Assembly: GCA_001304015.1 (NCBI GenBank)
Contig: LJUY01000023.1
Coordinates: 1 to 33,633, forward strand
DNA length: 33,633 nt
DNA from: a candidate division Zixibacteria bacterium SM23_81
GTDB taxonomy: Bacteria; SM23-81
Direction: 5' to 3'
Shown: positions 8,102 through 33,633 of the stretch, piece after piece
Position numbering within the stretch: the first letter of the stretch is position 1
How the letters are laid out: every line of letters begins with the position of its first letter
Translations under genes and position numbers: made by a program
The notes under the pieces: generated by a model
Database searches by the model: none
The model's input: the letters and a program-made list of their open reading frames with translations, nothing else
What the model was told of the DNA's origin: nothing

Positions 8102-9160
8102 CTAAGGGGTGAAGTCAGTTTTGACGGTGAGGGTCATGATATAAGCAGCTAGGAGCTTGGAGGCATTATCCAGATCGTCCAGGGAGATCATCTCCACAGG
8201 GGTGTGCATATAACGGTTCGGGACGCTGACCAAACCGGCGGCTACCCCGCTGCGGGTCACCTGCATGACGTTGGCGTCGGTGCCCGTGGCTCGTGGGGAA
8301 CCCAGCATCTGAAAAGGAATCTTGTTCTTCCGGGCAGAGGCTACCAGGCCCGCTCCCACGATGGGATTGATATTCGCTCCCCTGACGATAACTGGGCCCT
8401 TTCCCAAGCTCATCTCGCCAGCCTTTTGTTTGTCCGCATCGGGGTGATCAGAGGCATTGCCTACATCGACAGCAATACCCACATCCGGCTCGATACCGAA
8501 GGCGCTGGTTTTCGCGCCCCGCAAGCCAATTTCCTCTTGGACCGTGGAGACGGCGAACACAGCAGCCTTCGGCTTTTTGCTGGACAAGATGCGCAGGGTC
8601 TCGGCCACGGCAAAGCTGCCGATACGGTCGTCGAAGCCTCGGCCCACAGCCAGGCCATTTCGCAATGCCTGAAATCCATAATCAAAAACAATGGGATCTC
8701 CAATGGAAACCAACTTCGCGGCCTCTTTCTTATCTTTAGCCCCGATATCGATCCATAGCTTGTGCATCTCCGGGACCTTTTTTCTCTCTTCTTGGTCCAT
8801 CATATGGATGGCCTTTCGTCCAACGACGCCGTACACGATCCCCTTGTCTGTGAAAATCTGAACCCGCCGTGCAGAGACAATGGCCGAGTCCACACCGCCG
8901 ATGGCCGTAAAATAGATGAAGCCATCATCATTGATGTAGTTCACCATGAAACCCACCTCGTCACAATGCCCAGCCAGCATCACCCTGGGCTTTCCCTGAG
9001 AATTTAGGATAGCGATGGCATTGCCATGGACATCGGTGTAGACCTCGTCAGCATATCGTTTTATATGGCGTCGCCAAACCCCTTGAACCGGTTGTTCAAA
9101 ACCGGACGGGCTGGGAGCCTCAAGAAGAGCCTTTAAAAAATCCACAGAGGCCTTTTTCAC
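8102..9160 (-). CDS. M42-family metalloaminopeptidase
   Basis: A 352-residue peptidase of the M42 family (glutamyl aminopeptidase, TET or FrvX-like), a cytosolic dizinc enzyme that trims peptides and often forms dodecamers. Visible active-site positions are H65 and D67 in LAGHCDEVGF, D177/D178 in GRGFDDRIGS, E209-E210 in TVQEEIGLRG, D232 in IAVDVGNASD and H319 in NRYMHTPVEM. The start is GTG 9160 with GGAGGGAGGA directly upstream. No signal peptide is present. Substrate preference cannot be read from the sequence. Confidence 0.94.
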   Translation of the reverse strand: MKKASVDFLKALLEAPSPSGFEQPVQGVWRRHIKRYADEVYTDVHGNAIAILNSQGKPRVMLAGHCDEVGFMVNYINDDGFIYFTAIGGVDSAIVSARRVQIFTDKGIVYGVVGRKAIHMMDQEERKKVPEMHKLWIDIGAKDKKEAAKLVSIGDPIVFDYGFQALRNGLAVGRGFDDRIGSFAVAETLRILSSKKPKAAVFAVSTVQEEIGLRGAKTSAFGIEPDVGIAVDVGNASDHPDADKQKAGEMSLGKGPVIVRGANINPIVGAGLVASARKNKIPFQMLGSPRATGTDANVMQVTRSGVAAGLVSVPNRYMHTPVEMISLDDLDNASKLLAAYIMTLTVKTDFTP

Positions 9161-21155: not shown

Positions 21156-22472
21156 TTAGAAGCGGTAGGACGTGGACAAGAATATTCGGTCCACAACGTC
21201 CTTCTGCGATAAAAACGGCTGAGAAGTTTTCCAGGTCCCATGTACCCAGGCCAGATCCAGTGTCATCACCTGACCGACCAGAAAGCCAGCACCCAGGGTG
21301 TAATATTTCCGATCCTCTATGATCTTGCGTGCCACGAAAGCCAGCGGTTCTGAAGAAAAGCCAGCCCGAACCTTGACACCTGCTGTCGGCAGTATGTACT
21401 CACCTCCGATGCTCAGAGATAGAGTTTCGTCATAATCGTTCAAGGGCTGGTCGTTGAACTTCATCTGGCTCCAGTCCGCGTAGCGAAGGTCCGCGGCCAA
21501 TAAAAGGGTTGGCACGGACCAAGCCATCCCAAAGCCGAACTCCCAGGGCGTGGAGATCTCGTTCTCATAATAGAAGGAATCTGTGTACTGGTCCACAGAC
21601 CCGTCGTCGTAGACATCCACTGTCCTCTCCACCACTTCCCCTGAGATGTCGTAGGACACTGGAGAGGCGATTGTCAGTCCCGCTTTGACGAAGCGACTAA
21701 GCCTCAATAGTCCACCCAGCTTGAGATTCAAACCATCGAAGTCAGCCTCTTGGGTGTCGTGAATATAGGTGGTGTCAAAGTCAGAAGGCGGGTTTACATA
21801 CATATCTCGTGTATCAGCGAAAAAGGCGTCCCAGTCGTAGTTGTAATCGCCATCCCAGAGATTGACCGAAGCTCCCAAGGACAGCGTCGGGGAGACGTCG
21901 ATGGCACCCCCCAATGACCACGAAAACAGGCCTCCCGATTGCGTCTCTTGGCCCTCTTCCCACCACTCATCCTGAGAAGAATATCCACGCTGGATAAAAA
22001 ACGCATCGAAGTTCTTGACTCGTCCCGCTCCCAAAGCAAAGACCAGGCTGCCGCGGTAAGTAGGAACAGGGAAGACCATCCCGATGGCGTTGAGTCGCGT
22101 GTTGCTCTCCCTATCTTTGGAGGCGTTTTGGAAATACGTCGTCTTCGATGTATACCTCTGATGGGAGAGGCTTCCAGAGAACTCGATTCTCCTCACCTGA
22201 GCTAGCCCAGCGGGATTCCAATAGAGGGCTGAGATGTCCTCGGATACTGCGATGGCAGAACCACCCATGCCCATGGCTCGAGCGCCCAGGCCGAAATTAT
22301 CCGTGAGCTGTATGGCCTCATCTGCAGATGCTGGTCGACTGACTAGGCCTAAACATACGACATGGAGGACGATGATAACGCTCAAAGAGCCTGTCCAACG
22401 GAATATCTGTGCAAGGCCTCCGGTCATATTTTTGGGGCCAGATTCTCTCATGCGGTATTGATTGCTTCTCAT
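21156..22472 (-). CDS. FadL/OmpP1- or PorV-like outer-membrane barrel protein
   Basis: About 438 residues. After a signal peptide (hydrophobic core SVIIVLHVVCLGLV, ending near PASADE) comes NFGLGARAMGMGGSAIAVSE followed by SALYWNPAGLA. This GARAxGMGGA...A..WNPAGLA pattern is the hallmark of the OmpP1/FadL and PorV/UPF0164 group. The rest alternates hydrophobic and polar residues as in beta-strands and ends STSYRF with a C-terminal Phe. Such proteins are hydrophobic-compound channels or, in FCB bacteria, gliding/secretion shuttle proteins; which one is not clear. ATG 22472 has AGAGG upstream. It is the last gene of a run of four envelope proteins. Confidence 0.85.
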   Translation of the reverse strand: MRSNQYRMRESGPKNMTGGLAQIFRWTGSLSVIIVLHVVCLGLVSRPASADEAIQLTDNFGLGARAMGMGGSAIAVSEDISALYWNPAGLAQVRRIEFSGSLSHQRYTSKTTYFQNASKDRESNTRLNAIGMVFPVPTYRGSLVFALGAGRVKNFDAFFIQRGYSSQDEWWEEGQETQSGGLFSWSLGGAIDVSPTLSLGASVNLWDGDYNYDWDAFFADTRDMYVNPPSDFDTTYIHDTQEADFDGLNLKLGGLLRLSRFVKAGLTIASPVSYDISGEVVERTVDVYDDGSVDQYTDSFYYENEISTPWEFGFGMAWSVPTLLLAADLRYADWSQMKFNDQPLNDYDETLSLSIGGEYILPTAGVKVRAGFSSEPLAFVARKIIEDRKYYTLGAGFLVGQVMTLDLAWVHGTWKTSQPFLSQKDVVDRIFLSTSYRF

Positions 22473-22511
22473 CAAATTTTTCCTCTTTCAAGTTAGTAAG
22501 AAGGACAAGGT

Positions 22512-22886
22512 TCACAATCCATATTTAATGGCCAGAGCTTCAACTTGTCTTCTCTCCGAGACATCGCTGTTTACACATCCTCTTGGGTCGAGGTCGTGAG
22601 TTACAGCCAGTACATGATCAAATCCAAGGATAATCACCCCATCAGCGCCCTTTTCCCGAGCCTTCTTCATAATCTTCTCCTGAAATTCCTGGTCGCTAAA
22701 TAGTTCACTGGTCACTCTGGCAGTAGCGACGATTCGACCAATCACCTTATAGTCTGTGCTGACGTCATACTCCGAGAGATAGAGATCGACCTGTTGCGTA
22801 GGCGGATAAGATACCCCGATATAGTTGACCTTCGCACACCCCAGAGAGATCATCAAAAGAGCCAAGAGTATCAGCGCGCGTTTCAT
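22512..22886 (-). CDS. Small lipoprotein, unknown
   Basis: 124 residues beginning MKRALILLALLMISLGC, a lipoprotein-type signal with C17 as the probable acylated residue (Ser rather than Leu at -3 is slightly atypical). The mature part has YPPTQQVDLYLSEYDVSTDY and VIGRIVATARV, then KKAREKGADGVIILGF. Together these resemble a family of small FCB and proteobacterial lipoproteins with a YbjQ-like alpha/beta pattern, but I cannot name it with certainty. ATG 22886 has GGAGGC upstream; a longer reading frame above is noncoding. It lies 39 bases before the FadL-like gene. Confidence 0.75.
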   Translation of the reverse strand: MKRALILLALLMISLGCAKVNYIGVSYPPTQQVDLYLSEYDVSTDYKVIGRIVATARVTSELFSDQEFQEKIMKKAREKGADGVIILGFDHVLAVTHDLDPRGCVNSDVSERRQVEALAIKYGL

Positions 22887-22961
22887 GATAACGCCTCCTT
22901 CCCAGCTTTTTGACATAGCGGAATGCGCCGGCCAGTTCATTCTTATCTTTCGCCCGCCGGT

Positions 22962-23525
22962 TCACTCCTCATCGCCCTTTTCTTCTCCCTCTTCCCGTTG
23001 TTCTCTATCCTCAGGCCTCTGCTCAGGAATCTGAGGGCGACTCGACTTTTGCTGCCAATCGGGCGCTCTACGCCTCTGAGGCGTTGGGGAGTCGGACGGC
23101 TGCTGCTTCTCCTCGGGCTGCTGCTTTTGGCGAGGCTGACTGGCGCCTGTTGGTGGGCTGGGGGTTGCGGGCGGCTGAGACCAATCTGGCCCCCTCTGGC
23201 GATCCCATATGTATCTGTCTGTATCGATGGGCAGCCCCTCATCTCCATCGCTGGGATGCCAATACCAGTAATCGTTCCACCACCAAGGATAGGTGTAATA
23301 GTAACGCCATCTGGCGTATGCCTCCGGATAGTACCAGTAATAGTAGGGGTCATGCCAAAAATGCCTTGGATAAACCCACTCTTCGGAGTAGTCCGTTTCC
23401 AGATAGACATCCTCCTCGGGCATAACCCTCCCAGGCCGCTTTAGCACCGTATAACAGCTCAGACAGGAAAGGCACATGAACAGCAGGAGGAATCCAAGGA
23501 CGATGTGGCTTGCCATTTTTCTCAT
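22962..23525 (-). CDS. Lipoprotein with Tyr/Trp-rich region and Pro/Gln/Glu-rich tail
   Basis: 187 residues, starting MRKMASHIVLGFLLLF at ATG 23525 (GGAGAG upstream). Three cysteines (C18, C21, C24) end the hydrophobic signal; any could be the lipidated one. Residues 61-89 contain 12 Tyr and 7 Trp in 29 positions (for example PYYYWYYPEAYARW and TYPWWWNDYWYW). The second half, from about residue 105, is low-complexity, rich in Pro, Gln, Arg, Glu, ending EEGEEKGDEE, and probably disordered. I recognise no domain. The aromatic block could bind carbohydrate or peptidoglycan or pack against the membrane, but this is a guess. It lies in a run of envelope genes. Confidence 0.78.
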   Translation of the reverse strand: MRKMASHIVLGFLLLFMCLSCLSCYTVLKRPGRVMPEEDVYLETDYSEEWVYPRHFWHDPYYYWYYPEAYARWRYYYTYPWWWNDYWYWHPSDGDEGLPIDTDRYIWDRQRGPDWSQPPATPSPPTGASQPRQKQQPEEKQQPSDSPTPQRRRAPDWQQKSSRPQIPEQRPEDREQREEGEEKGDEE

Positions 23526-23608
23526 TTTCAATCTCTCCATAGGATTAGAAACTGGATATCAGATAACTTCGCGCCTTCATCTATTCGACGAGAATAACTC
23601 GTAGACGT

Positions 23609-24373
23609 TTAAAAATATTCTAGGTAGAGAATTCTCACCTGCCTGGCGGGAGAATTGATGCCCCGACGATTTTTGACCAGGTTCATGAAATCGAGCTCCA
23701 GGGTGAGCTGCTCTCCAAATGACCAGCGCACGCCAAGGCCCAGGTAGCCATTGCCTTTACCGAAATTGGACAACTTCCGATCGTCATTGAAAGCAAAATC
23801 GTACTCCCCGACGAGGCTCAACTCCTGATTGAACTCTTTGTCGACACCTAAGAAAACGTTGGGGTCATTGTCGCCGTCTTCATCTTCCAGGCTGTAATTC
23901 GCTCCCAGATGCAAACCCATGGCAGCACCCAGAACTTTGTAGTTCTTGCTGGCCACCCAGTAGAAACCCTTGGATTTTATGGCAAACCGATCTATGTCAT
24001 CGCCCTCTACATAAGCTCCATATCCCTGAGTATCGAATCCCGCTGCGAGGGCCGGAAGGGCGAGGCTCTCGTCTATCAACCGATACTTGACTGAGACGCC
24101 AGCTTGCGGAAACCATTGGATGTTCTCCTCGCTGATGACATTTTCCCCTCCATAGGAAACCCCCAGGAGCAATCGTTCCGTGAGGCCAACGGAGATGCCT
24201 CCCAGAACCCCTCCCCCGGGAAATATCCGTAGCTCCACGTCGAAGCTTCCCCGCGGCAACAAACCAGCTGTGGGACAATCCAACAGCTTCCTGGGCTGCG
24301 CCGGCTGCGCGGTTAATACTGGGGCCAACAGGAAGACCAATATGGAAAAAAGCAAGATTGTTCTTTCCATCAT
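23609..24373 (-). CDS. Predicted outer-membrane beta-barrel protein
   Basis: 254 residues. The signal peptide is MMERTILLFSILVFLLAPVLTAQ, followed by LDCPTAGLLPRGSFDVELRI, FPGGGVLGGISVGLTERLLL and GVSYGGENVI. Repeated beta-strand patterns with aromatic ends follow, and it closes with RILYLEYF. The PTAGLLPRGSF...GGxxGGISVGLTxRLxLGxSYGG pattern is shared with uncharacterised FCB barrel proteins and is reminiscent of YjbH-like domains; I would not assign a function. ATG 24373 is preceded by GGAGGT. It appears to be the first gene of the envelope run that includes the two lipoproteins and the FadL-like barrel. Confidence 0.75.
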   Translation of the reverse strand: MMERTILLFSILVFLLAPVLTAQPAQPRKLLDCPTAGLLPRGSFDVELRIFPGGGVLGGISVGLTERLLLGVSYGGENVISEENIQWFPQAGVSVKYRLIDESLALPALAAGFDTQGYGAYVEGDDIDRFAIKSKGFYWVASKNYKVLGAAMGLHLGANYSLEDEDGDNDPNVFLGVDKEFNQELSLVGEYDFAFNDDRKLSNFGKGNGYLGLGVRWSFGEQLTLELDFMNLVKNRRGINSPARQVRILYLEYF

Positions 24374-24442
24374 GGGACACCTCCATGTCGGATATTGCCT
24401 CTTGACCTCTGTGGACTCTTGACAAGGTGGGACCGTCATGGA

Positions 24443-24472
24443 ATAATAATCCTTTATCATTAGACATCACAA
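24443..24472 (-). promoter_or_regulatory. Possible promoter of the envelope-protein run
   Basis: On the minus strand TTGTGA (24472-24467) and TATTAT (24448-24443) with an 18-base spacer, about 70 bases before the barrel gene start at 24373. The -10 box is good, the -35 box only partial. Confidence 0.4.
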
Positions 24473-24561
24473 GATATATGAAACATTCCGCTCAGCCCAA
24501 GAATTCCGCGAAAAGCAGATTGGCTCTCTTGCGCATGCAAGCGGGAAGCAAGGCAACCTCC

Positions 24562-26211
24562 TCAACGGCCGGCTCCTTTGGATCGAATGACCGTGTCCTT
24601 GAGCCAATTTTGATCATCCCGTTGGGGATAATCGATCGTATAATGAAGCCCCCGGCTCTCTTTTCGCATCAGGGCTGATCTGATAACCAGTTCGGCCACG
24701 GTGGCCAAATTACGTAGTTCTATGAGATCACTGGTGACCAGCGTCCGGCGATAGAACTCGTCTATTTCCTGAAGGATAATGTGAATTCTCTGCTTGGCCC
24801 TCTGTAATCTCTTATTGGAGCGTACGATGCCGACATAATCCGTCATCAACAGCTGGATCTCGGCCCTATCGTGAGAGATCACCACCCATTCTTCGCTGTC
24901 GAAAGTCCCCTCCTCACTCCAGGGTGGAATATCTGGAAAACTGAACTGGCCTGTAGGACCGACCTCCTGAATGGCCTTCTGGACAGCCCGATGTGCGAAA
25001 ACCACTGCTTCCAGAAGCGAATTGCTGGCCAATCTGTTGGCACCATGAACGCCTGCGTGGGCCACTTCTCCGCAGGCATACAAACTCTGGATGTCCGCCT
25101 GTCCCTCTAGGTTCACCACCACACCCCCGCACATGTAATGGGCCGCAGGCACCACAGGGATCCAGGATTTCGCGATGTCGATCCCCAGGGAAAGGCATTG
25201 ACCGTATATATGGGGAAATCTTTTCCTCGTAAAGTCAGCATCCAGGTGGGTCACGTCCAAAAATACGCACTCTTCACCGCTCCTCTTCAGCTCCTGGTCG
25301 ATGGCCCTGGCGACCACATCTCGAGGCGCTAAGTCCCCCTTGGGATGGTAGTTCTTCATGAAATCCCGACCATCGGCCAGCCTTAATATCCCGCCTTCCC
25401 CTCGCACGGCCTCTGAGATGAGGAAAGCCATCGTACCTGGATGGTAAAGGCTGGTGGGATGAAACTGCATGAACTCCAAATTAGCCACCTCGGCCCCGGC
25501 TCTATAGGCCATGGCCAAGCCGTCTCCGGTGGCAATTTTAGGGTTGGTGGTGTGTGAATAGAGCTGGCCAACTCCGCCAGACGCAAGGAGGGTGACTTTA
25601 GCGAGAAACCTTTTGACCTTTTGGCTCTCGATGTCCAACACGTATGCGCCCCAGCAATGTAGTTTACCCCGCGGAGTTCTCGCCTCGCCCCTGAGATGAT
25701 GTTCGGTAATCAAGTCAACGGCGATATGGTTCTCATAGATGCGAACATTTTCACTTTCTTTCGCTCGCTCTAACAAAACTCGCTCTATCTCTCTGCCCGT
25801 CATGTCAGCGGCATGAACGATGCGGTTGCGAGAGTGCCCACCCTCCCTTCCTAAATCCAAAACCTCCTCGCCAGACTCGGCCTTGCGTCTGCTGAACTGC
25901 ACCCCCCAGCTCATCAACTCCCTGATTCTTTCTGGGCCCTCCCGCACCACCAACTCCACCGCCTCCCGACGGCTCAGTCCGGCCCCCCCCTTCATGGTGT
26001 CCTCTATGTGCAGCTCAAAAGTATCCTGGGTTGATACCACCGAGGCGATGCCGCCCTGAGCATAGTTGGTATTTGACTCGGCCTCCTCCTTCTTGGTGAT
26101 CACCGCCACCGTCCCATGTTGACTGACCTTCAGTGCAAAGGAGAGGCCAGCAATCCCGCTGCCGATGACCAGAAAATCGGCCTGAACGATATCCAATTCA
26201 CTGGGCTGCAA
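24562..26211 (-). CDS. nadB: L-aspartate oxidase
   Basis: FAD enzyme oxidising L-aspartate to iminoaspartate for quinolinate and NAD synthesis. The 549-residue protein has the N-terminal FAD loop LVIGSGIAGLSFALK, the ESNTNYAQGGIASV block, ASGGVGQLYSHTTNP, and the substrate-site FMQFHPTSLYHPG and ISEAVRGEGGIL segments. HYMCGGVVVN and ACGEVAHAGVHGANRLASNS complete the flavin domain; a helical C-terminal domain follows. The start is TTG 26211 with GGAGG 5 bases upstream. NadA and NadC are not in the window. It follows uppP by 44 bases; the two are probably co-transcribed but functionally unrelated. Confidence 0.96.
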   Translation of the reverse strand: MQPSELDIVQADFLVIGSGIAGLSFALKVSQHGTVAVITKKEEAESNTNYAQGGIASVVSTQDTFELHIEDTMKGGAGLSRREAVELVVREGPERIRELMSWGVQFSRRKAESGEEVLDLGREGGHSRNRIVHAADMTGREIERVLLERAKESENVRIYENHIAVDLITEHHLRGEARTPRGKLHCWGAYVLDIESQKVKRFLAKVTLLASGGVGQLYSHTTNPKIATGDGLAMAYRAGAEVANLEFMQFHPTSLYHPGTMAFLISEAVRGEGGILRLADGRDFMKNYHPKGDLAPRDVVARAIDQELKRSGEECVFLDVTHLDADFTRKRFPHIYGQCLSLGIDIAKSWIPVVPAAHYMCGGVVVNLEGQADIQSLYACGEVAHAGVHGANRLASNSLLEAVVFAHRAVQKAIQEVGPTGQFSFPDIPPWSEEGTFDSEEWVVISHDRAEIQLLMTDYVGIVRSNKRLQRAKQRIHIILQEIDEFYRRTLVTSDLIELRNLATVAELVIRSALMRKESRGLHYTIDYPQRDDQNWLKDTVIRSKGAGR

Positions 26212-26255
26212 TTAAACCTCCCGCATTAGCGATAGGTCTAAGAAACGAACCGAAG

Positions 26256-27053
26256 CTAGAGGCCGAATACCAGAGCCAATAAGCCCACGGTCCAGCAGTA
26301 GAAAGCGAAATAGCTAAGCTTGCCCCTGCGCACCACTCGGAGAAGAAACTTGATGGCCGCATAGCCAGAGAGATAGGCAGCTAGCGTGCCCAGGCATAAA
26401 GAAACTAGAGCTGCGGTGGAGGGAGGCGACTTCAACAAATCGACGGTCTTGAGAGCGGTGGCACCCAAAATGGCCGGCAAGGCCAGTAAAAAGGAGAACT
26501 CCACGGCCTTGCCTCTTTCCACCTTCTGAAATAACGCGGCGCCGATAGTGGCACCCGACCGAGAGATGCCCGGCAGGATGGCCAGTGCCTGGGCGCAGCC
26601 AACCAGGAGGGACTCCCGGATGCTCACGAACCTTTTCCCCGATGCAACGTAACGGGTTAGCCAGAGGATCAGGCCGGTGAGCAGAAGCATGATAGAGACG
26701 AAGATTGTGCTGGAAAAAACCTCCTCCACTCCCTCCTGAAAGAGGAGACCCATGATGGCCGCCGGGATAGATCCTATCAAGATAAGGACCACTAGCCTCA
26801 AATGAGGGTCTCCTGGAACACCGCGCCTCAGCATAAAGAACCCGCATGAGATAGCCATTCGCCGAATATGCGTCCAGAAGGCGGTCACTGTGGCCATAAG
26901 AGTTCCAAAATGGACGAAGATCACGAAGGTCAGGTCATCTCCACGGAGACCCAGAAGGCGTTCGGCCAAAACCAAGTGACCCGAGCTGCTGATGGGCAAA
27001 AACTCGGTAAGACCCTGCAATAGACCCAGAAGAAGAGAGTGGAAAGCCGACAC
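26256..27053 (-). CDS. uppP: Undecaprenyl-diphosphatase
   Basis: Integral membrane phosphatase (UppP/BacA) recycling undecaprenyl diphosphate, the lipid carrier for cell-wall and O-antigen synthesis; it also confers bacitracin tolerance. The 265-residue protein has the first signature LLGLLQGLTEFLPISSSGHL with the catalytic Glu, and the second, LPGISRSGATIGAAL, with the SRS residues. About eight membrane segments are visible. The start is GTG 27053 with AGGGAGG four bases upstream. It begins divergently from the plus-strand CsgG-like gene. Confidence 0.95.
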   Translation of the reverse strand: MSAFHSLLLGLLQGLTEFLPISSSGHLVLAERLLGLRGDDLTFVIFVHFGTLMATVTAFWTHIRRMAISCGFFMLRRGVPGDPHLRLVVLILIGSIPAAIMGLLFQEGVEEVFSSTIFVSIMLLLTGLILWLTRYVASGKRFVSIRESLLVGCAQALAILPGISRSGATIGAALFQKVERGKAVEFSFLLALPAILGATALKTVDLLKSPPSTAALVSLCLGTLAAYLSGYAAIKFLLRVVRRGKLSYFAFYCWTVGLLALVFGL

Positions 27054-27140
27054 GCCACCTCCCTACGCATTTTTAAAAACCAAGATGGCTTTAAATTACG
27101 GAGAGGGAGGTGAAAAGGCAAGGAAAAGTTAAAAAAAGGC

Positions 27141-27169
27141 TTGACAACGGTCTTTTGATGAGTTAATCT
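27141..27169 (+). promoter_or_regulatory. Sigma-70-type promoter for the CsgG-like/barrel gene
   Basis: TTGACA (27141-27146, perfect) and TAATCT (27164-27169) with a 17-base spacer. The -10 keeps the three most conserved positions. The GTG start at 27226 follows about 56 bases later after AGGAGG. Confidence 0.6.
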
Positions 27170-27225
27170 GTAGCTCACATTTATCACGCGGGGACGAAGT
27201 GTAATCACTTGCTTAGGAGGCACTC

Positions 27226-28293
27226 GTGAAATCTTCAAACAGAATAATCCATGCAGCCGTGATATTCTTTTCCCTCCTCTGTGTTCTTATCGCTGTCCCT
27301 CAGGTCTCTCAAGGTCAGCAGAAATTGAAGGTGGTCGTATTCGCTGCCCAATCCATCGGCGTCGACGAGGCCACCGTTTTAACCACCTCTCAGCTTCTAC
27401 GCAATGACCTTGCTGCTACCGGGAAATTCTCAGTCATGGAGGAAGGCCGGGTGGAAAACTTGCTGGGAGAGACACCCAACTGTTACGATTCCCAATGTGC
27501 CATGGAGATAGGCCAACGGCTGGGTGTGGATAAAGCAGTGGTTGGGAGCCTGAGCCGGTTGGGCGAGAAAATTATCGTCGAGCTCCGGTTGGTGGACGTG
27601 GTTTCCGGAAATGTGGAATTTAGCGATCGCATGGCCTCAAGCACCGTGGAGGACCTGGACACCGTCACCAAGCGTCTCGCCACAGGGATTGCCACCGGGA
27701 AGCCTTCGGAGAAAACGGTAGAAATAGGGGCCATCACAGAGGTGGAGACTCGAGAACCCCGCAGGCGCAAAAATTTCTTCACCGTGGGAGGCAAGGTCGG
27801 CTACCTGTTCCCTAGTGGCGATTCGTGGGGTGAGGCGAATAAGTTGTTGTGTCTGGACTGGGTTACCTGGTACGAAACGCCCACCTTCATGGTGGAGTCC
27901 ATAGTGGGATGGCGCTATCAGGTCGATGAGGACAATGGCGCCTACGATGTCCCCATCGATTTCTCCATCTTTTACATTCCCGGTAAGTCAGACTTCACCC
28001 CGTATCTGGGCGGGGGTTTTGGAATTCACTGGGTGGCAGCTTTACCATGGGGTGAGGATCAGGTACAAGACGAAGATGAGCGCATCACAAACAACGGTCT
28101 CGCCCTGAACGTTGGCGGCGGGTTGATGGGTTTCCGGACCTACGACTTTCGCTTCGTCGTCGATTTAAGATACACCGTAGTCTTCGCCGAACTGGGTGAC
28201 CAGGATACCCATTCGGGCATCAGCCTCACCTTCGGCATCACCAGCCCCCGCAGAGAGGGAGAGTCTCGCGGCTGCTGCATCTTCAATTTCTAA
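27226..28293 (+). CDS. CsgG/TolB-N-like domain fused to a C-terminal beta-barrel
   Basis: 355 residues. A signal peptide (about 1-30, core AAVIFFSLLCVLIAV) is followed by a domain of about 125 residues: KVVVFAAQSIGVDEATVLTT, LRNDLAATGKFSVMEEGRV, a disulfide-ready C...C in NCYDSQCAMEIGQRLGVDKA, VVGSLSRLGEKIIVELRLVD. This resembles the CsgG/FlgO/TolB-N nucleic-acid-lyase-like fold used in outer-membrane assemblies. A basic linker (REPRRRKN) leads to a predicted barrel with TPYLGGGFGIHWV, ending CCIFNF. GTG 27226 has AGGAGG five bases upstream. The barrel motif recurs in the two small barrel proteins of this locus, so they are probably related. Confidence 0.75.
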   Translation: MKSSNRIIHAAVIFFSLLCVLIAVPQVSQGQQKLKVVVFAAQSIGVDEATVLTTSQLLRNDLAATGKFSVMEEGRVENLLGETPNCYDSQCAMEIGQRLGVDKAVVGSLSRLGEKIIVELRLVDVVSGNVEFSDRMASSTVEDLDTVTKRLATGIATGKPSEKTVEIGAITEVETREPRRRKNFFTVGGKVGYLFPSGDSWGEANKLLCLDWVTWYETPTFMVESIVGWRYQVDEDNGAYDVPIDFSIFYIPGKSDFTPYLGGGFGIHWVAALPWGEDQVQDEDERITNNGLALNVGGGLMGFRTYDFRFVVDLRYTVVFAELGDQDTHSGISLTFGITSPRREGESRGCCIFNF

Positions 28294-28310
28294 CTACATT
28301 CGCTAACATC

Positions 28311-28350
28311 TGGCACCTCGGCTGCACCGAGGCGGCGCCACTTCTTTTTT
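28311..28350 (+). terminator. Probable Rho-independent terminator
   Basis: CCTCGG (28316-28321) and CCGAGG (28327-28332) form a GC-rich stem with loop CTGCA, extended by TGGC/GCCA outside. CTTC and six T (28345-28350) follow. It separates the CsgG-like gene from the YidD-fusion gene, whose ATG is only 11 bases further on. Confidence 0.65.
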
Positions 28351-28361
28351 CCCGGACATTC

Positions 28362-30509
28362 ATGTCATCCGCAATCAAACAGGAGAGGCCCCGGAGAATC
28401 CTTTGGGGCCTCTTCTCAATGCTGGTTCTCCTTCTTGTCCTTTCTCAAACAGGGCTCTCAGAGGGGAGCAGCGCCCCAGAATCTGACAGCCTCTCCCAAA
28501 TTGTCTCCCCCAACTCCGCGGAGGAACTTCCGACACCCTCACCACTCATCTGGCCTGCGGTGATAGGTCTTTCCCTCTACCAGAAGATTCTCTCCCCCCA
28601 ACAGGGTCAAGTCTGCGCCTTTCAGCCCACCTGTTCCCACTTCGCCCAAAAGGCTCTCCGAAAATACGGGTTGCTCCAGGGCGCCCTGATGACCTCGGAT
28701 CGGCTCCAACGGTGTCACCAGTGCGCCGCGGGACATTATCCCCAAACGAAAACGGGACTATGCCATGATCCCATAGAAAACCACCATCTCTGGGGAGCCA
28801 TCCAGCCTGCTCCCTTCCCTCTCCCGGAATTGTCAACCCCCGCTTCTTCGAGCGCAGGAGGGGAAAAAGCCACTCATCTGGCTTTTGCTGACCATCTTTG
28901 CACGACGGGAGATAACCGACGAGCTTATGTCCAATATCTCGGTTTTGCACGAAGCTCTCCTCAGGATCCACGGTCCGGCTCGGCTCGACTGCGAGCCGGC
29001 ATCTGCCTCCAGAAAATGGATCAGTGGCAAATGGCCACAGACCTTTTCGCAAACCTGGCCTCTCAGGAAGCTGGCTCTTCTCTTGGGGAGGAGGCAACTT
29101 TTCAGATGGCCCTGAGCCAACTTCAGGCCGGCGATCAGACCGGGTCCTTAAAGACCCTCAAATCTCTGCAGGGCACATCGCAGGGTGATCGAGCGAGCCT
29201 GCTGGCCGGTTGGATTCGACTACAGCATGGAGAGTGGGCTGGTGCCAGATCTTCCGGGCAGAGGGCGATGACCTCATCCCGCAAGGTGATCTCTCAAGCT
29301 GGCCGGCAGGTGTTGGAAACAGCGACCCGAGGAACACAGTTGCCCCATCGAATCCCTCTGCTGGCGGCCTTGTTCTCTGCCATCGTTCCGGGTTCTGGGA
29401 AATGGTACGCTGGCAAGCCCATGGACGGACTTTACTCGCTCCTTCTAGTAGGCTCTGCGGCCACCATCGCCTACGCTTACGAGGACGACCATCAGAGAGC
29501 GAAAAGCGCTGTTTTTGGTTCATTGGGTCTGTTCTTTTACCTGGGTAACATCTTTGGCTCGGCATCGGAGGCCAAAAGGTTCAACCTCCGCGTTCACGAA
29601 AATCTTCTCCAACACCAGTGGGTGTCTGCTTATCCCGAAAGATGGCTGTGGGAATTTCGGAATATAGCTGGTTCAGGAAGGTCCTGCACAGCAGGAAAAG
29701 GAAGCCTGGACGTGGCCGAAAATTTATTCCAAAAGGGCCAATACGATGAGGCTATCACCGAGTATAAGCGGCACCTGTTCCATTTTCCAGAGGATCCCCA
29801 GCGAGGCGTTGTCCTCTATAAAACCGGAATATCTTTTTTGAACAATGCGCAGTGGGACCATGCCAGAGCTCATCTGAGCGCGGCGGAAAAACAGGCTGGC
29901 CCAGACGAGAGACTTCGATATCAATCCCAACTCCGGATTGGGCAGAGCTTTCTCAGCCAGAACCGTCCGGAGCAGGCTAAAGAGGTTCTACGGGACCTTC
30001 TCAGGGATCCCATAGTGGCGAGGGAAAAGGATCGAGTAGCAGAGGTGCAATACTGGTTAGGTACCTGTGCTCTGAAAAGCGGAGACTGGGTGGAAGCCCT
30101 GGGCACCTTTCACTGGTTAGAAAGAGAGGTCTCCGAAGGCGCTTTTGCCTCCCAGGGGCAGCAGCTATCCAGAGCCGCTCAGGAGGGCTATCAGCTATCC
30201 CACAGATCCCCCACCCTGGCGGCAGTTTTCTCCACCGTCATTCCGGGAAGCGGGCAGATTTACTGTGGCCACCTTTGGGATGGCTTATTTTCCCTGGCCC
30301 TCAATGCCTCGGTGGGTTATCTAACGGTAGATGCCTTTGGGGACGGCCGCCGGTTGGACGGGGTGCTCTTGGCCTCTTTGCTATGGTCCCGGTTCTATTT
30401 CGGTGGGCAGAAGAACGCAGCCAGATATGCCCGGGAATATAATCGCAGAGTGTTGGAAGAGCATCTGAGAAGATATCAGTCTCTGATAATTCCCCACTAC
30501 CTTGATTAA
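28362..30509 (+). CDS. YidD-domain, TPR-like and double DUF5683-like membrane protein (fusion)
   Basis: 715 residues. Residues 13-32 are a hydrophobic signal or anchor. Residues 66-122 match YidD (DUF37): LYQKILSPQQGQVCAFQPTC then SHFAQKALRKYGLLQGAL and RLQRCH, with C85, C91, C118 and extra C121 and C134. TPR/Sel1-like helical repeats run over about 170-325. Residues 328-412 form a membrane module with PGSGKWYAGKPMDGLYSLLL and FYLGNIFGSASEAKRFN. More TPR-like helices span 447-610 (AENLFQKGQYDEAITEYKRH). A second copy of the module covers 612-700 (HRSPTLAAVFSTVIPGSGQI, DGLFSLALNAS, ARYAREYN). YidD normally stands alone next to yidC and aids membrane-protein insertion, so a chaperone role is possible. 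No clear ribosome site precedes ATG 28362. Confidence 0.82.
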   Translation: MSSAIKQERPRRILWGLFSMLVLLLVLSQTGLSEGSSAPESDSLSQIVSPNSAEELPTPSPLIWPAVIGLSLYQKILSPQQGQVCAFQPTCSHFAQKALRKYGLLQGALMTSDRLQRCHQCAAGHYPQTKTGLCHDPIENHHLWGAIQPAPFPLPELSTPASSSAGGEKATHLAFADHLCTTGDNRRAYVQYLGFARSSPQDPRSGSARLRAGICLQKMDQWQMATDLFANLASQEAGSSLGEEATFQMALSQLQAGDQTGSLKTLKSLQGTSQGDRASLLAGWIRLQHGEWAGARSSGQRAMTSSRKVISQAGRQVLETATRGTQLPHRIPLLAALFSAIVPGSGKWYAGKPMDGLYSLLLVGSAATIAYAYEDDHQRAKSAVFGSLGLFFYLGNIFGSASEAKRFNLRVHENLLQHQWVSAYPERWLWEFRNIAGSGRSCTAGKGSLDVAENLFQKGQYDEAITEYKRHLFHFPEDPQRGVVLYKTGISFLNNAQWDHARAHLSAAEKQAGPDERLRYQSQLRIGQSFLSQNRPEQAKEVLRDLLRDPIVAREKDRVAEVQYWLGTCALKSGDWVEALGTFHWLEREVSEGAFASQGQQLSRAAQEGYQLSHRSPTLAAVFSTVIPGSGQIYCGHLWDGLFSLALNASVGYLTVDAFGDGRRLDGVLLASLLWSRFYFGGQKNAARYAREYNRRVLEEHLRRYQSLIIPHYLD

Positions 30510-30585
30510 AAAACCTGGAGCCACATGGATCATACGCTCCTCCGAAAAACTAGTGATCTTTCTATTCCACAAATCTATAGAGAAA

Positions 30586-30611
30586 GGCTCTGATCGCTCA
30601 GAGCCCTTTTT
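30586..30611 (+). terminator. Rho-independent terminator after the YidD-fusion gene
   Basis: GGCTCTGA (30586-30593), loop TCGC, TCAGAGCC (30598-30605), C, then five T (30607-30611). It lies about 77 bases after the stop codon and just before the convergent barrel gene end at 30633. Confidence 0.85.
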
Positions 30612-30632
30612 GAGTAGTCTTTATAATTTTTG

Positions 30633-31268
30633 TCAACGCTTTAACGAATACATCACCCCGAAGAAGATGCCGAAATTGCTGGGATCATTGATAGTGTACC
30701 TTATCTCCACATCCCCCCTCATCTGCGGAGAAAACCTACCTTCAACACCTCCGATCCCATGAAGGCCTGGGTGGACGCCGCTTTTTTCCCAATCATCGTA
30801 TGGGGCATCGCGGCTGAATTCTCTTTCCTCCCTCACCAGGTGAAAGCCAAAACCACCACCGGCATATGGAATTATAGAACCTTCGGCTGCCAAAGCATGC
30901 TTGACAGTCAATCCAAAAGAAAGATCGCGGTTGTATCTCTCACAAGGAAAATTCCGATGTCTACTATCCTGGCTCTTTGACCAATAGTCTAAGTTCCCCT
31001 CAAGTCTGAGAGTCGGTGTGATGGTGCCCAGGTCAACGTGCAAACCGAAGCCTACCGTAGATTTAATATTTTCATCGGGGTCTACCAATCCTATCTTCCC
31101 GCCAATCCCTGAAAAATCAACGTTCATGCTACCCTGGCTAGATTCAGATTTTTCTGTTTCTCGCAATTGAATTTCCTGGCCACCAGAACTGTCTCCGGCC
31201 AGAGCCGGATTCACGGACATGAAACAGATGAGAGCCAGAATCAAAAAGGAGAAGGACGTTTTCCTCAA
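30633..31268 (-). CDS. Small outer-membrane beta-barrel protein (paralogue A)
   Basis: 211 residues with the signal peptide MRKTSFSFLILALICFMSV to NPALAG. The mature part starts with a polar, low-complexity stretch (about 25-45) and then barrel-like strands. It contains IGGKIGLVDPDENIKSTVGF, LRLEGNLDYW, IIPYAGGGFGFHLV and a C-terminal GIFFGVMYSLKR. The PY-x-GGG-x-G-x-H motif and the VDP(D/N)-near-start pattern are shared with the next gene, and the motif also with the barrel of the 355-residue protein at 27226. The start is TTG 31268 with GGAGGTGA five bases upstream. Function unknown. Confidence 0.78.
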   Translation of the reverse strand: MRKTSFSFLILALICFMSVNPALAGDSSGGQEIQLRETEKSESSQGSMNVDFSGIGGKIGLVDPDENIKSTVGFGLHVDLGTITPTLRLEGNLDYWSKSQDSRHRNFPCERYNRDLSFGLTVKHALAAEGSIIPYAGGGFGFHLVREEREFSRDAPYDDWEKSGVHPGLHGIGGVEGRFSPQMRGDVEIRYTINDPSNFGIFFGVMYSLKR

Positions 31269-31376
31269 CTTTCACCTCCAGAGCGGAACTTCAAAATGTA
31301 CACTCATCAGGAAATCCGCTGTGGCTTCAGCGCACGATTCATCTCCCTTCCAATAAGAGCCAGCGGAGGGAGACGC

Positions 31377-31988
31377 TCATGGCATCTTGAGGGTCAGGCC
31401 CGCATAAAAGGCATTTTCTGATGTCGTTTCATCTTCGGTGAAGATGAGGGTGCGACGGCCCTCGGCGAATATCTCCAAGGGAAATAGTGGAAAGCTCAGG
31501 GCCAGGCCGGCGAGACCATGAATCCCCGCTTTGGACTCGTCGAAATCGGAGTCGATGGGAACTGTAGTCTGCAGCTCCGGCAAATCCACCGTCGAGGCCA
31601 TAAAGTGTATTCCCAGACCACCCCCGAGATAGGGTTTGATGGGAACTGCAACTATAGAGAAGTTGTATTTAGCTGTACCATTCAAGGAAACAAGATGATA
31701 AGTCGCCTCGGCACTTTGCTCCCCCACTCCTGGGACGGGAAAGCTGAAGTCATACTTTTTTCTGGCATACTCGGCGCTTGCCTCCAAGTCGAGGATCGGC
31801 AGGGTGCCGACTCTCAGGTGAGCACCCAACATGGTGACTCCAGTTAAGGATTTTTCCGTGTTGGGGTCATCAACGCTGACCGTGCCCCCCCGTAGGCCGA
31901 AGCCCAATCCCACCAAGGCTTGTGAGGGTGCGACGCTCAGAAACAAGAAGATCGACAGAATTACGATACACCACAGAGACCGCTTCAT
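31377..31988 (-). CDS. Small outer-membrane beta-barrel protein (paralogue B)
   Basis: 203 residues with signal peptide MKRSLWCIVILSIFLFLSVA to PSQA. The barrel has GFGLRGGTVSVDDPNTEKSL, LDLEASAEYARKKYDF, IKPYLGGGLGIHFM, GIHGLAGLALSF and a C-terminal AFYAGLTLKMP. It is about the same size as the neighbouring gene at 30633 and shares its strand order and PYLGGG motif, so the two look like a diverged tandem duplication. ATG 31988 has GGGGG nine bases upstream; the reading frame above is open much further but overlaps the kinase gene. A strong promoter lies just before it. Confidence 0.8.
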   Translation of the reverse strand: MKRSLWCIVILSIFLFLSVAPSQALVGLGFGLRGGTVSVDDPNTEKSLTGVTMLGAHLRVGTLPILDLEASAEYARKKYDFSFPVPGVGEQSAEATYHLVSLNGTAKYNFSIVAVPIKPYLGGGLGIHFMASTVDLPELQTTVPIDSDFDESKAGIHGLAGLALSFPLFPLEIFAEGRRTLIFTEDETTSENAFYAGLTLKMP

Positions 31989-32037
31989 ATTCAAGCCCCC
32001 TTTACCGTGAACTTCTGAATTCTTATAGTCAGATGCC

Positions 32038-32066
32038 ATAATAATACCAGAGTCCCATCTTGTCAA
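32038..32066 (-). promoter_or_regulatory. Strong sigma-70-type promoter for barrel paralogue B
   Basis: On the minus strand TTGACA (32066-32061, perfect) and TATTAT (32043-32038, five of six) with a 17-base spacer. The TGA stop codon of the upstream kinase gene lies inside the -35 box. Confidence 0.82.
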
Positions 32067-32995
32067 TAACTTTTTAGCAACCCCTCTGCCCCAATGTTCT
32101 GCAAAGCCTCCAAACTCTCGATGCCGCTGAGGCCGCACTTCATTCCCGCAGCCTGATTGGCAAATCGGCTGGCTCTCTGGGCATCGCCCGATTTGACGTG
32201 CTCTGACACAAACGCGGCCAGAAACACGTCCCCGCAACCGGTGGTGTCGATGACTGCTGAGGGAGGGTACGAGCTGAAACGCTGTATGCGAATGTCCTCG
32301 CCCGAACCGGTGACCACCAGAGATCCTTCCGAGCCTAAGGTGAGCAGTAAGATAGACGGCCCAGCCGCCATGACCGTGCGGCCGAAGGATAGAAGCTCCT
32401 CTTCCGACCAAACCTGGCTTCCCGAGATCAGCTTGGCCTCCCCACGATTCACTTGGACCACGTCAGCCTGGGCTACCCAATCTTGCCAATGGGGAATCTG
32501 ACGCCAGAATCGTCGTCCCTCTCCGTCAATTCCCAGACACAGACTGTGGATGTCCATGTAGATGGTGGCCTTGGTGTGGGCTCGTATGAGCTTCATGGTC
32601 TCTAGAGAAAGATCTCTTCCGGAGATGAAATTCACCAAGAAAAAGTCGACGGCCAAAAAAGGACTGATCTGCTTAAAGCTCAGGGGCGGTACACCCCCAC
32701 GAAGCACCTCCTCCCTATCGCTCTCTGAGTAATATGTCAAAAAGGCGTGATTGTTTTTCTCCCGGACAAGAGAGATTCCCTCCCTGGAGATCCTGGGATG
32801 GCGTGACAGTATGGCCATAACTGGCCCCGATACATCTCGGCCAAGGTTGACTACCGGGAAAACCGTTGTCCCCGCCTCGGCCAGCAGAGCCAAGGGAACG
32901 ATGCTGTATAACAAACCCCCATAACTCTCCCTTTTCTGACCGTTCGGAAAAAGGATGGTATCCCGGTTGACGGTGCCGACGACGGCAATCTTCAT
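32063..32995 (-). CDS. PfkB-family carbohydrate kinase
   Basis: 310 residues of the ribokinase/PfkB fold. It starts MKIAVVGTVNRDTI with a glycine pair in the sugar-binding region (ESYGGLLYSI), has VVQVNRGEAKL, LLTLGSEGSLVV, and the family signature IDTTGCGDVFLAAF with the catalytic D256. The substrate is not clear. It overlaps the GT9 glycosyltransferase by four bases (ATGA). Heptose 7-phosphate kinase (HldE N-terminal domain) belongs to the same superfamily, so a link to heptose or LPS is possible, but the sequence is not obviously HldE. Ribose, adenosine or fructose derivatives are equally open. Confidence 0.88.
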   Translation of the reverse strand: MKIAVVGTVNRDTILFPNGQKRESYGGLLYSIVPLALLAEAGTTVFPVVNLGRDVSGPVMAILSRHPRISREGISLVREKNNHAFLTYYSESDREEVLRGGVPPLSFKQISPFLAVDFFLVNFISGRDLSLETMKLIRAHTKATIYMDIHSLCLGIDGEGRRFWRQIPHWQDWVAQADVVQVNRGEAKLISGSQVWSEEELLSFGRTVMAAGPSILLLTLGSEGSLVVTGSGEDIRIQRFSSYPPSAVIDTTGCGDVFLAAFVSEHVKSGDAQRASRFANQAAGMKCGLSGIESLEALQNIGAEGLLKSY

Positions 32996-33633
32996 CTGTC
33001 AACTTCCTCCCCTCTGTCCAAGATGGTGAATACCGCGTCCAAGACCTGTTGGGGCATGATCTCCTTCATGCAGGCGAAGGTATTTCGACGGCATCTGCGC
33101 CCGCCGTGAATGCCACAGGGACGACAATCCAGCTGCTTTTGTACGACGATGTGCTTCGGACCGAAGGGAGCAAAACCGAAATCAGGTACTGTGGGACCAA
33201 AGATGACTACTACTGGTCGATCCACCGCCGCTGCGAGGTGGGCCGCTGCGCTGTCATTGGACAGCACCAAGTGACACCTTTGCATGAGGGCAGCCGCTGG
33301 CATTGGCGACAGTTCTCCAGTCGCTACGGGAACATTTCCTCCAGCCTCTCGCGCTATTTTTCGGCACAGCTCTCTTTCCGCTGAGCTGCCCAGAAGAACC
33401 GCCTGAGCATTTCTCTTCTCCCGCAGCTCCCGAATCACCTGGGCGAATCCCTCAGGCAGCCACCTTTTGGTGGCCCACATAGACCCTGGAGCAATCCCCA
33501 CTAACGCTTGATCTCCAGGGATACCCTGACGGGACAAAAAGTCCTGGGCTTGACGACGATCCTCAGCTCTAGGGTATACTCGGGGCGCCTGAGTGGGGCA
33601 CTGGAAGCCTAAAGCTCGCCATAGGTCGATGTT
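32992..33633 (-). CDS. Glycosyltransferase family 9 (heptosyltransferase type), 5' end outside window
   Basis: The C-terminal 213 residues of a GT-B glycosyltransferase of family 9, which adds heptose or related sugars to lipopolysaccharide core. Visible pieces are GIAPGSMWATKRWLPEGFAQ, AVLLGSSAERELC, CHLVLSNDSAAAHLAAAVDR with the ADP-sugar site, VVIFGPTVPDFGFAPFGP and the cysteine-rich tail DCRPCGIHGG...CM. Translation stays open to the window edge, so the start codon is further upstream; a TTG at 33537 is internal. Translationally coupled to the PfkB-type kinase. It is one of the best signs of a lipopolysaccharide-bearing outer membrane. Confidence 0.92.
   Translation of the reverse strand, partial: NIDLWRALGFQCPTQAPRVYPRAEDRRQAQDFLSRQGIPGDQALVGIAPGSMWATKRWLPEGFAQVIRELREKRNAQAVLLGSSAERELCRKIAREAGGNVPVATGELSPMPAAALMQRCHLVLSNDSAAAHLAAAVDRPVVVIFGPTVPDFGFAPFGPKHIVVQKQLDCRPCGIHGGRRCRRNTFACMKEIMPQQVLDAVFTILDRGEEVDR

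Follow-up and report, generated by a model that had tools for sequence, protein, structure and literature searches.

A YidD paralogue fused to two TPR-membrane modules and a recurrent gene set that points to a cell-envelope assembly system

Introduction

YidD is, to our knowledge, nearly universal, and we know of no mechanism for it. The family (PF01809/TIGR00278) is described as a membrane protein insertion efficiency factor, and its canonical members are 70–100 residues long and encoded next to rnpA or yidC. For the canonical protein of Escherichia coli, a putative role as a membrane protein insertion factor is listed in PMC8082313, after Yu et al. 2011. Three further described groups bear on the protein reported here: DUF5683 (PF18935), which carries a PG-x-G-x2-Y membrane motif; the periplasmic TPR proteins YbgF/CpoB, YfgM and BamD; and LolA and LolA_like (PF03548, PF17131), with their half-barrel fold.

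The locus described here lies in a 33,633-nucleotide stretch of DNA from candidate division Zixibacteria bacterium SM23_81 (contig LJUY01000023.1), referred to below as the window. It encodes a protein that has a YidD domain but neither the length nor the gene neighbours of a canonical YidD. In the open-access literature, which lacks most subscription papers, nothing was found on a second YidD family or on the gene set described below, on YidD together with LolA or TPR proteins, or on the function of DUF5683.

Results and Discussion

Domain organization of the fusion protein

The 715-residue protein joins a YidD domain, two TPR blocks and two membrane modules in one chain, and the fusion is real (Table 1). 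A domain search identified the YidD domain with PF01809 (64.4 bits, cut-off 27, residues 69–126) and TIGR00278 (66.8 bits, cut-off 40), the two matches together spanning residues 66–126, in agreement with the original prediction, made from the sequence alone, of a YidD domain at the front of a long, signal-bearing protein. The N-terminus is indeed signal-like, with a hydrophobic segment at residues 9–29 (hydropathy of 2.81 over 15 residues, 13–27), and the helical repeats that had been noticed are TPRs, since several Pfam TPR families exceed their cut-offs in the ORF and the repeats are modelled as a solenoid. The two membrane modules are related to each other as predicted, but their proposed likeness to DUF5683 is narrow. 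Half B passes the PF18935 cut-off by a small margin (28.5 versus 26.7 bits), and its best stretch covers only 25 residues (615–639), corresponding to profile positions 3–27 of 151; relatives of the half modules mostly score below the cut-off and, in contrast to DUF5683, a periplasmic-type TPR block stands in front of the module. The downstream hairpin listed in Table 1 is one of three terminator-like hairpins in the region, where the consensus scan expects 4.3.

Table 1. Features of the fusion gene and its downstream flank (positions in the window).
Feature	Positions	Strand	Basis
Whole gene, YidD2-A-B triple fusion, 715 aa	28362..30509	+	ORF, profile matches; same fusion at L163
N-terminal hydrophobic segment, signal peptide or anchor, residues 9–29	28386..28448	+	Hydropathy, model helix
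YidD2 domain, residues 61–126 (C85, C91, D113, R114, C118)	28542..28739	+	PF01809, tree, column counts
YidD2-specific C-terminal extension (GHYP...DP...N..W), residues 127–145	28740..28796	+	Alignment columns
Half A TPR block, residues 168–325	28863..29336	+	Model solenoid, fold search
Half A membrane module, residues 332–423	29355..29630	+	Model; clade A in tree
Half B TPR block, about residues 449–600	29706..30161	+	Pfam TPR_16/TPR_6 at residues 450–581; HMM envelope 449–704
Half B membrane module, about residues 613–704	30198..30473	+	Partial PF18935 match; outside clade A
Terminator-like hairpin, 8-bp stem, T tail	30586..30605	+	Consensus scan only

An AlphaFold2 model was obtained for residues 1–425 from an alignment of 19 sequences (mean pLDDT 79.9). 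A full-length alignment was rejected because in it MAFFT assigned the single TPR-module proteins without exception to half A and spread TPR helices across the YidD domain. The model contains an N-terminal helix (residues 9–29), three YidD helices (61–76, 91–102 and 104–117, pLDDT about 60–88) and a TPR solenoid (168–325, pLDDT mostly above 90, about 92–97). The half A module is predicted, in this one model of moderate confidence, to consist of a short helix interrupted by the PGSG motif and two long helices. A fold search with the model returned TPR proteins, a result that bears on the TPR block and not on the YidD domain or the module; the Z-scores for residues 168–325 were 16.6 for YbgF, 16.3 for YfgM and 15.3 for BamD. 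This likeness is generic, and such folds are uninformative on clients; unlike these proteins, the fusion has its TPRs in front of a membrane module and joined to a YidD domain. A search by sequence for a solved YidD structure found none.

YidD2, a paralogue of canonical YidD

The original prediction implied that the fused domain takes the place of an ordinary YidD. A check of the same genome for a separate yidD beside yidC found a canonical gene of 71 codons adjoining yidC (G000:C55), with the fusion on another contig, and the idea of displacement is contradicted. Judged from the tree and alignment columns, the fused domain represents a distinct paralogous family, termed YidD2 below, which is always additional to the normal yidD in the genomes that were checked in detail. 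A 99/98 branch in the tree, which holds 45 YidD domains, parts 25 YidD2 domains, including that of the fusion, from 20 canonical ones.

The two families share the fold helices, the C-x-[FM]-x-P-[ST]-C-S core (C-x-F-x-P-T-C-S in the comparison with the fusion) and a terminal DP. Neither family varies at C85 or C91, and a third common cysteine, C118 in the fusion, is retained in 33 of the 46 YidD2 sequences in an alignment that also contained 20 canonical sequences. In the same alignment, D113 is present in all 46 YidD2 sequences and in none of the 20 canonical ones, which have lysine or arginine there, whereas R86 (the arginine of the canonical CRF) and P120 occur in 20/20 canonical sequences and are confined to them. 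A nine-residue insertion ahead of the final DP is found only in YidD2 (absent from 20/20 canonical sequences), and the C-terminal extension is also kept at L052, L056 and L072. The fusion lacks the canonical combination of R86, K/R113, P120 and GG, and YidD2 is tied to TPR-module proteins rather than to yidC. Two further cysteines of the fusion, C121 and C134, had been taken to extend the YidD core; they are private to this protein, since other members have F/S/L/W and L/Y/F at these positions.

All YidD2 proteins also carry a strongly hydrophobic N-terminal segment, which places the first core cysteine at residue 57 or later, compared with about residue 24 in a typical canonical YidD. Many of these N-termini resemble cleavable signal peptides by eye, as at L073, where the apparent site falls between VSA and GE. 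On hydropathy and a crude search for cleavage motifs, YidD2 is thus probably an exported cousin of YidD.

The TPR-module proteins A and B and their association with YidD2

YidD2 (E-value of 1e-20 or better) was found in 30 of 290 sampled genomes. In other genomes, YidD2 and two TPR-module proteins, A and B, are encoded by separate neighbouring genes, in arrangements that differ among lineages. In G002 (contig JAOZPP010000011.1), the closest relative that carries the gene, a 426-residue YidD2-A protein and a 308-residue B protein are encoded in overlapping frames, and the same order, YidD2-A then B, is seen in WOR-3 (L072). Poribacteria and Myxococcales encode YidD2 on its own, with A as the next gene. 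Within the G006 phylum, YidD2 lies apart from the canonical yidD in 15 of 17 genomes and the usual order is B, YidD2, A; in one family of this phylum, B is fused ahead of YidD2 and A is located on another contig (three genomes checked). YidD2-A fusions occur in the window and at L052 and L072, and B-YidD2 fusions at L126 and L128–L133. The survey for the same triple fusion elsewhere yielded one further example, of 730 residues (L163, genome G160). Also in the phylum of G006, a CTP-transferase/dolichol-kinase-like gene follows A at L053, L120–L125 and L127 (PF01148, 34 bits in L053).

A full-length TPR-module protein is fused or adjacent to YidD2 at 44 of 50 loci. When cases on other contigs are included, such a protein is present in 29 of 30 YidD2 genomes (the exception being G206, which has YidD2 and no full-length match) and in none of 30 genomes without YidD2, where the matches span the TPR part only. 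The comparison genomes lacking YidD2 were sampler-chosen members of other phyla, and YidD2 genomes supplied the query. The Fisher test (p = 5e-16) ignores both shared ancestry and query bias, and the finding is therefore the contrast itself and not the p-value. POTRA domains, used as a test for diderm organization, were detected in 29 of 30 YidD2 genomes but also in YidD2-negative genomes, and do not discriminate.

A tree built from 50 TPR-module domains was used to examine how the two halves of the fusion are related. A starred 99/92 branch sets apart the A proteins together with the first half, and the second half lies beyond this clade, among the B proteins. The single-copy gene at L161, located upstream of YidD2, is a member of clade A, and this explains the second of the label changes counted in the test. 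By this phylogeny, the two halves are ancient paralogues.

The original prediction had explained the halves by duplication of one TPR-module unit within this protein. Their shared HR-x-P, PGSG-x2-Y and DGL-x-SL motifs would be expected from such an origin, as would the fact that both halves match the A and B profiles, but each half belongs to a different old clade, and members of the two clades are separate genes in the split relatives. The tree refutes an internal duplication unless gene conversion is invoked, and we regard this origin as extremely unlikely. It might also be asked whether the fusion has functional meaning at all, since an overlap of a few bases makes adjacent genes prone to fusion (at L052, a start at 9080 lies inside a frame ending at 9087) and the parts could be merely co-transcribed neighbours joined by accident. 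Fusions recur in different gene orders, however, and unlinked partners still occur together in the same genomes, which makes an accident improbable.

LolA-like and small membrane protein neighbours

A LolA-like gene is located directly upstream at 17 YidD2 loci, in Poribacteria, Myxococcota, several other families and G002 of the window's own phylum. Its product has a signal-like N-terminus and is predicted to adopt the LolA half-barrel fold: the AlphaFold2 model of the Poribacteria protein (pLDDT 81.5) matches LolA in Foldseek with an E-value of 4.7e-11, and LolA is recovered from the PDB with the family profile (E-value 1.6e-6). The protein at L052 is the only cassette member above the Pfam LolA cut-off (28.3 versus 23.6 bits). 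Two rounds of training on these loci produced the partner family profiles, and their E-values therefore express kinship within the set rather than an independent detection; the LolA fold result and the L052 Pfam match are independent of them.

A gene for a small membrane protein precedes the LolA-like gene at 11 loci. Proteins with a GKSPEYV-type motif are encoded in this position at L162 (6004–6405), L165 (3593–4117), L168 (3297–3680), L170 (3289–3738), L079 (5744–6193) and L080 (5597–6028), and a different small protein, with SCCLGPRVG twice, takes their place at L052 and L163. Similar exported proteins of about 180 residues with no match lie beside YidD2 in three genomes of different families (L058, 6345–6884; L161, 5549–6106; L178, 2624–3202).

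At the sensitivity used, neither single-sequence nor profile searches found a close LolA-like or small membrane gene in the genome of the window (assembly 92.6% complete). Both genes are also missing from many YidD2 loci, and are therefore not obligatory.

Genomic surroundings in the window

The fusion gene is flanked upstream by a gene with a TolB_N domain and a weak barrel match (27226–28293) and downstream by one with an OMP_b-brl match (32.3 bits, 30633–31268). The wider region (21156–33537) is rich in barrels, including a FadL/OmpP1-type protein (21156–22475; PF03349, 45 bits), a possible barrel (23609–24460) and a barrel-like ORF (31377–32411). The ORF at 26256–27053, divergent from the fusion region, looks by eye like an undecaprenyl-diphosphatase of the UppP/BacA type. 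A hairpin (CCTCGG-CTGCA-CCGAGG) in the stretch that separates the TolB_N gene from the fusion (28293–28362) is followed 9–10 bases later by a T run; the two genes may therefore not share a transcript.

Proposed function

The separate A and B proteins begin with a signal-like sequence followed by TPRs, and the TPRs are therefore probably periplasmic. Given fusions in both orders, a periplasmic location would require each module to cross the membrane an even number of times, in keeping with the two long helices predicted for the half A module. On this arrangement, YidD2 would be placed at the outer surface of the inner membrane. We tentatively propose, as a plausible reading, that this conserved envelope gene set of diderms encodes a complex of YidD2, A and B at the periplasmic side of the inner membrane, which would deal with hydrophobic or lipidated clients and often pass them to a LolA-like carrier. 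The A and B modules would anchor the complex in the inner membrane, the paired TPR arms would bind clients or partners, and YidD2 at the membrane surface would aid a client in leaving, entering or maturing at the outer leaflet. In many species, the client would be handed to the LolA-like carrier encoded alongside; in the window's genome, where no LolA-like partner of the cassette type was found, the carrier would be the ordinary LolA or none. It is possible, if doubtful, that the system constitutes a second route of lipoprotein or lipid trafficking that runs parallel to Lol and uses a YidD-type domain relocated from the cytoplasmic face to the periplasmic one.

Two other roles can be weighed against this proposal. 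YidD2 might instead act from the cytoplasmic side or inside the membrane and help YidC or Sec to insert particular inner-membrane proteins; A and B would then be its dedicated clients or adaptors and not parts of a periplasmic transfer complex. The YidD domain is genuine and its core intact, the E. coli homologue has the putative insertion role cited above, and YfgM, a component of the PpiD-YfgM complex, is among the nearest TPR folds. The extra hydrophobic segment before the YidD helix in all YidD2 proteins, the signal-like starts of A and B, the normal yidD retained in the genomes and the loss of R86, K/R113, P120 and GG all argue against it, and an insertion role appears rather unlikely. 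The original prediction suggested a membrane-insertion or envelope-assembly scaffold for the surrounding barrels. The envelope-assembly idea in general gains support from the recurrent neighbour with a LolA fold and from the obligate TPR-membrane partners; barrel genes do stand on both sides of the fusion, but the link to them is one of proximity in the window, and the neighbours differ elsewhere. A system serving the assembly of outer-membrane β-barrels or surface structures, with BamD/YfgM-like TPRs and the nearby barrels as clients, would be in keeping with these flanking genes, with the closeness of the TPR fold to BamD and with the exported, barrel-looking protein that precedes the set in part of the G006 phylum. 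The latter proteins have no Pfam match above cut-off, however, and the neighbour that recurs across phyla is LolA and not a barrel, and barrel assembly appears unlikely.

Conclusions

The recurrence of this gene set across many phyla points to an undescribed cell-envelope assembly system. Because its partners co-occur with it almost one to one and fuse with it repeatedly, YidD2 comes with named candidate partners, and the fusion in the window offers a natural single-chain construct. The role of a YidD domain thereby becomes testable outside the Sec/YidC pathway, and an envelope system that has gone unnoticed is suggested in many poorly studied phyla.
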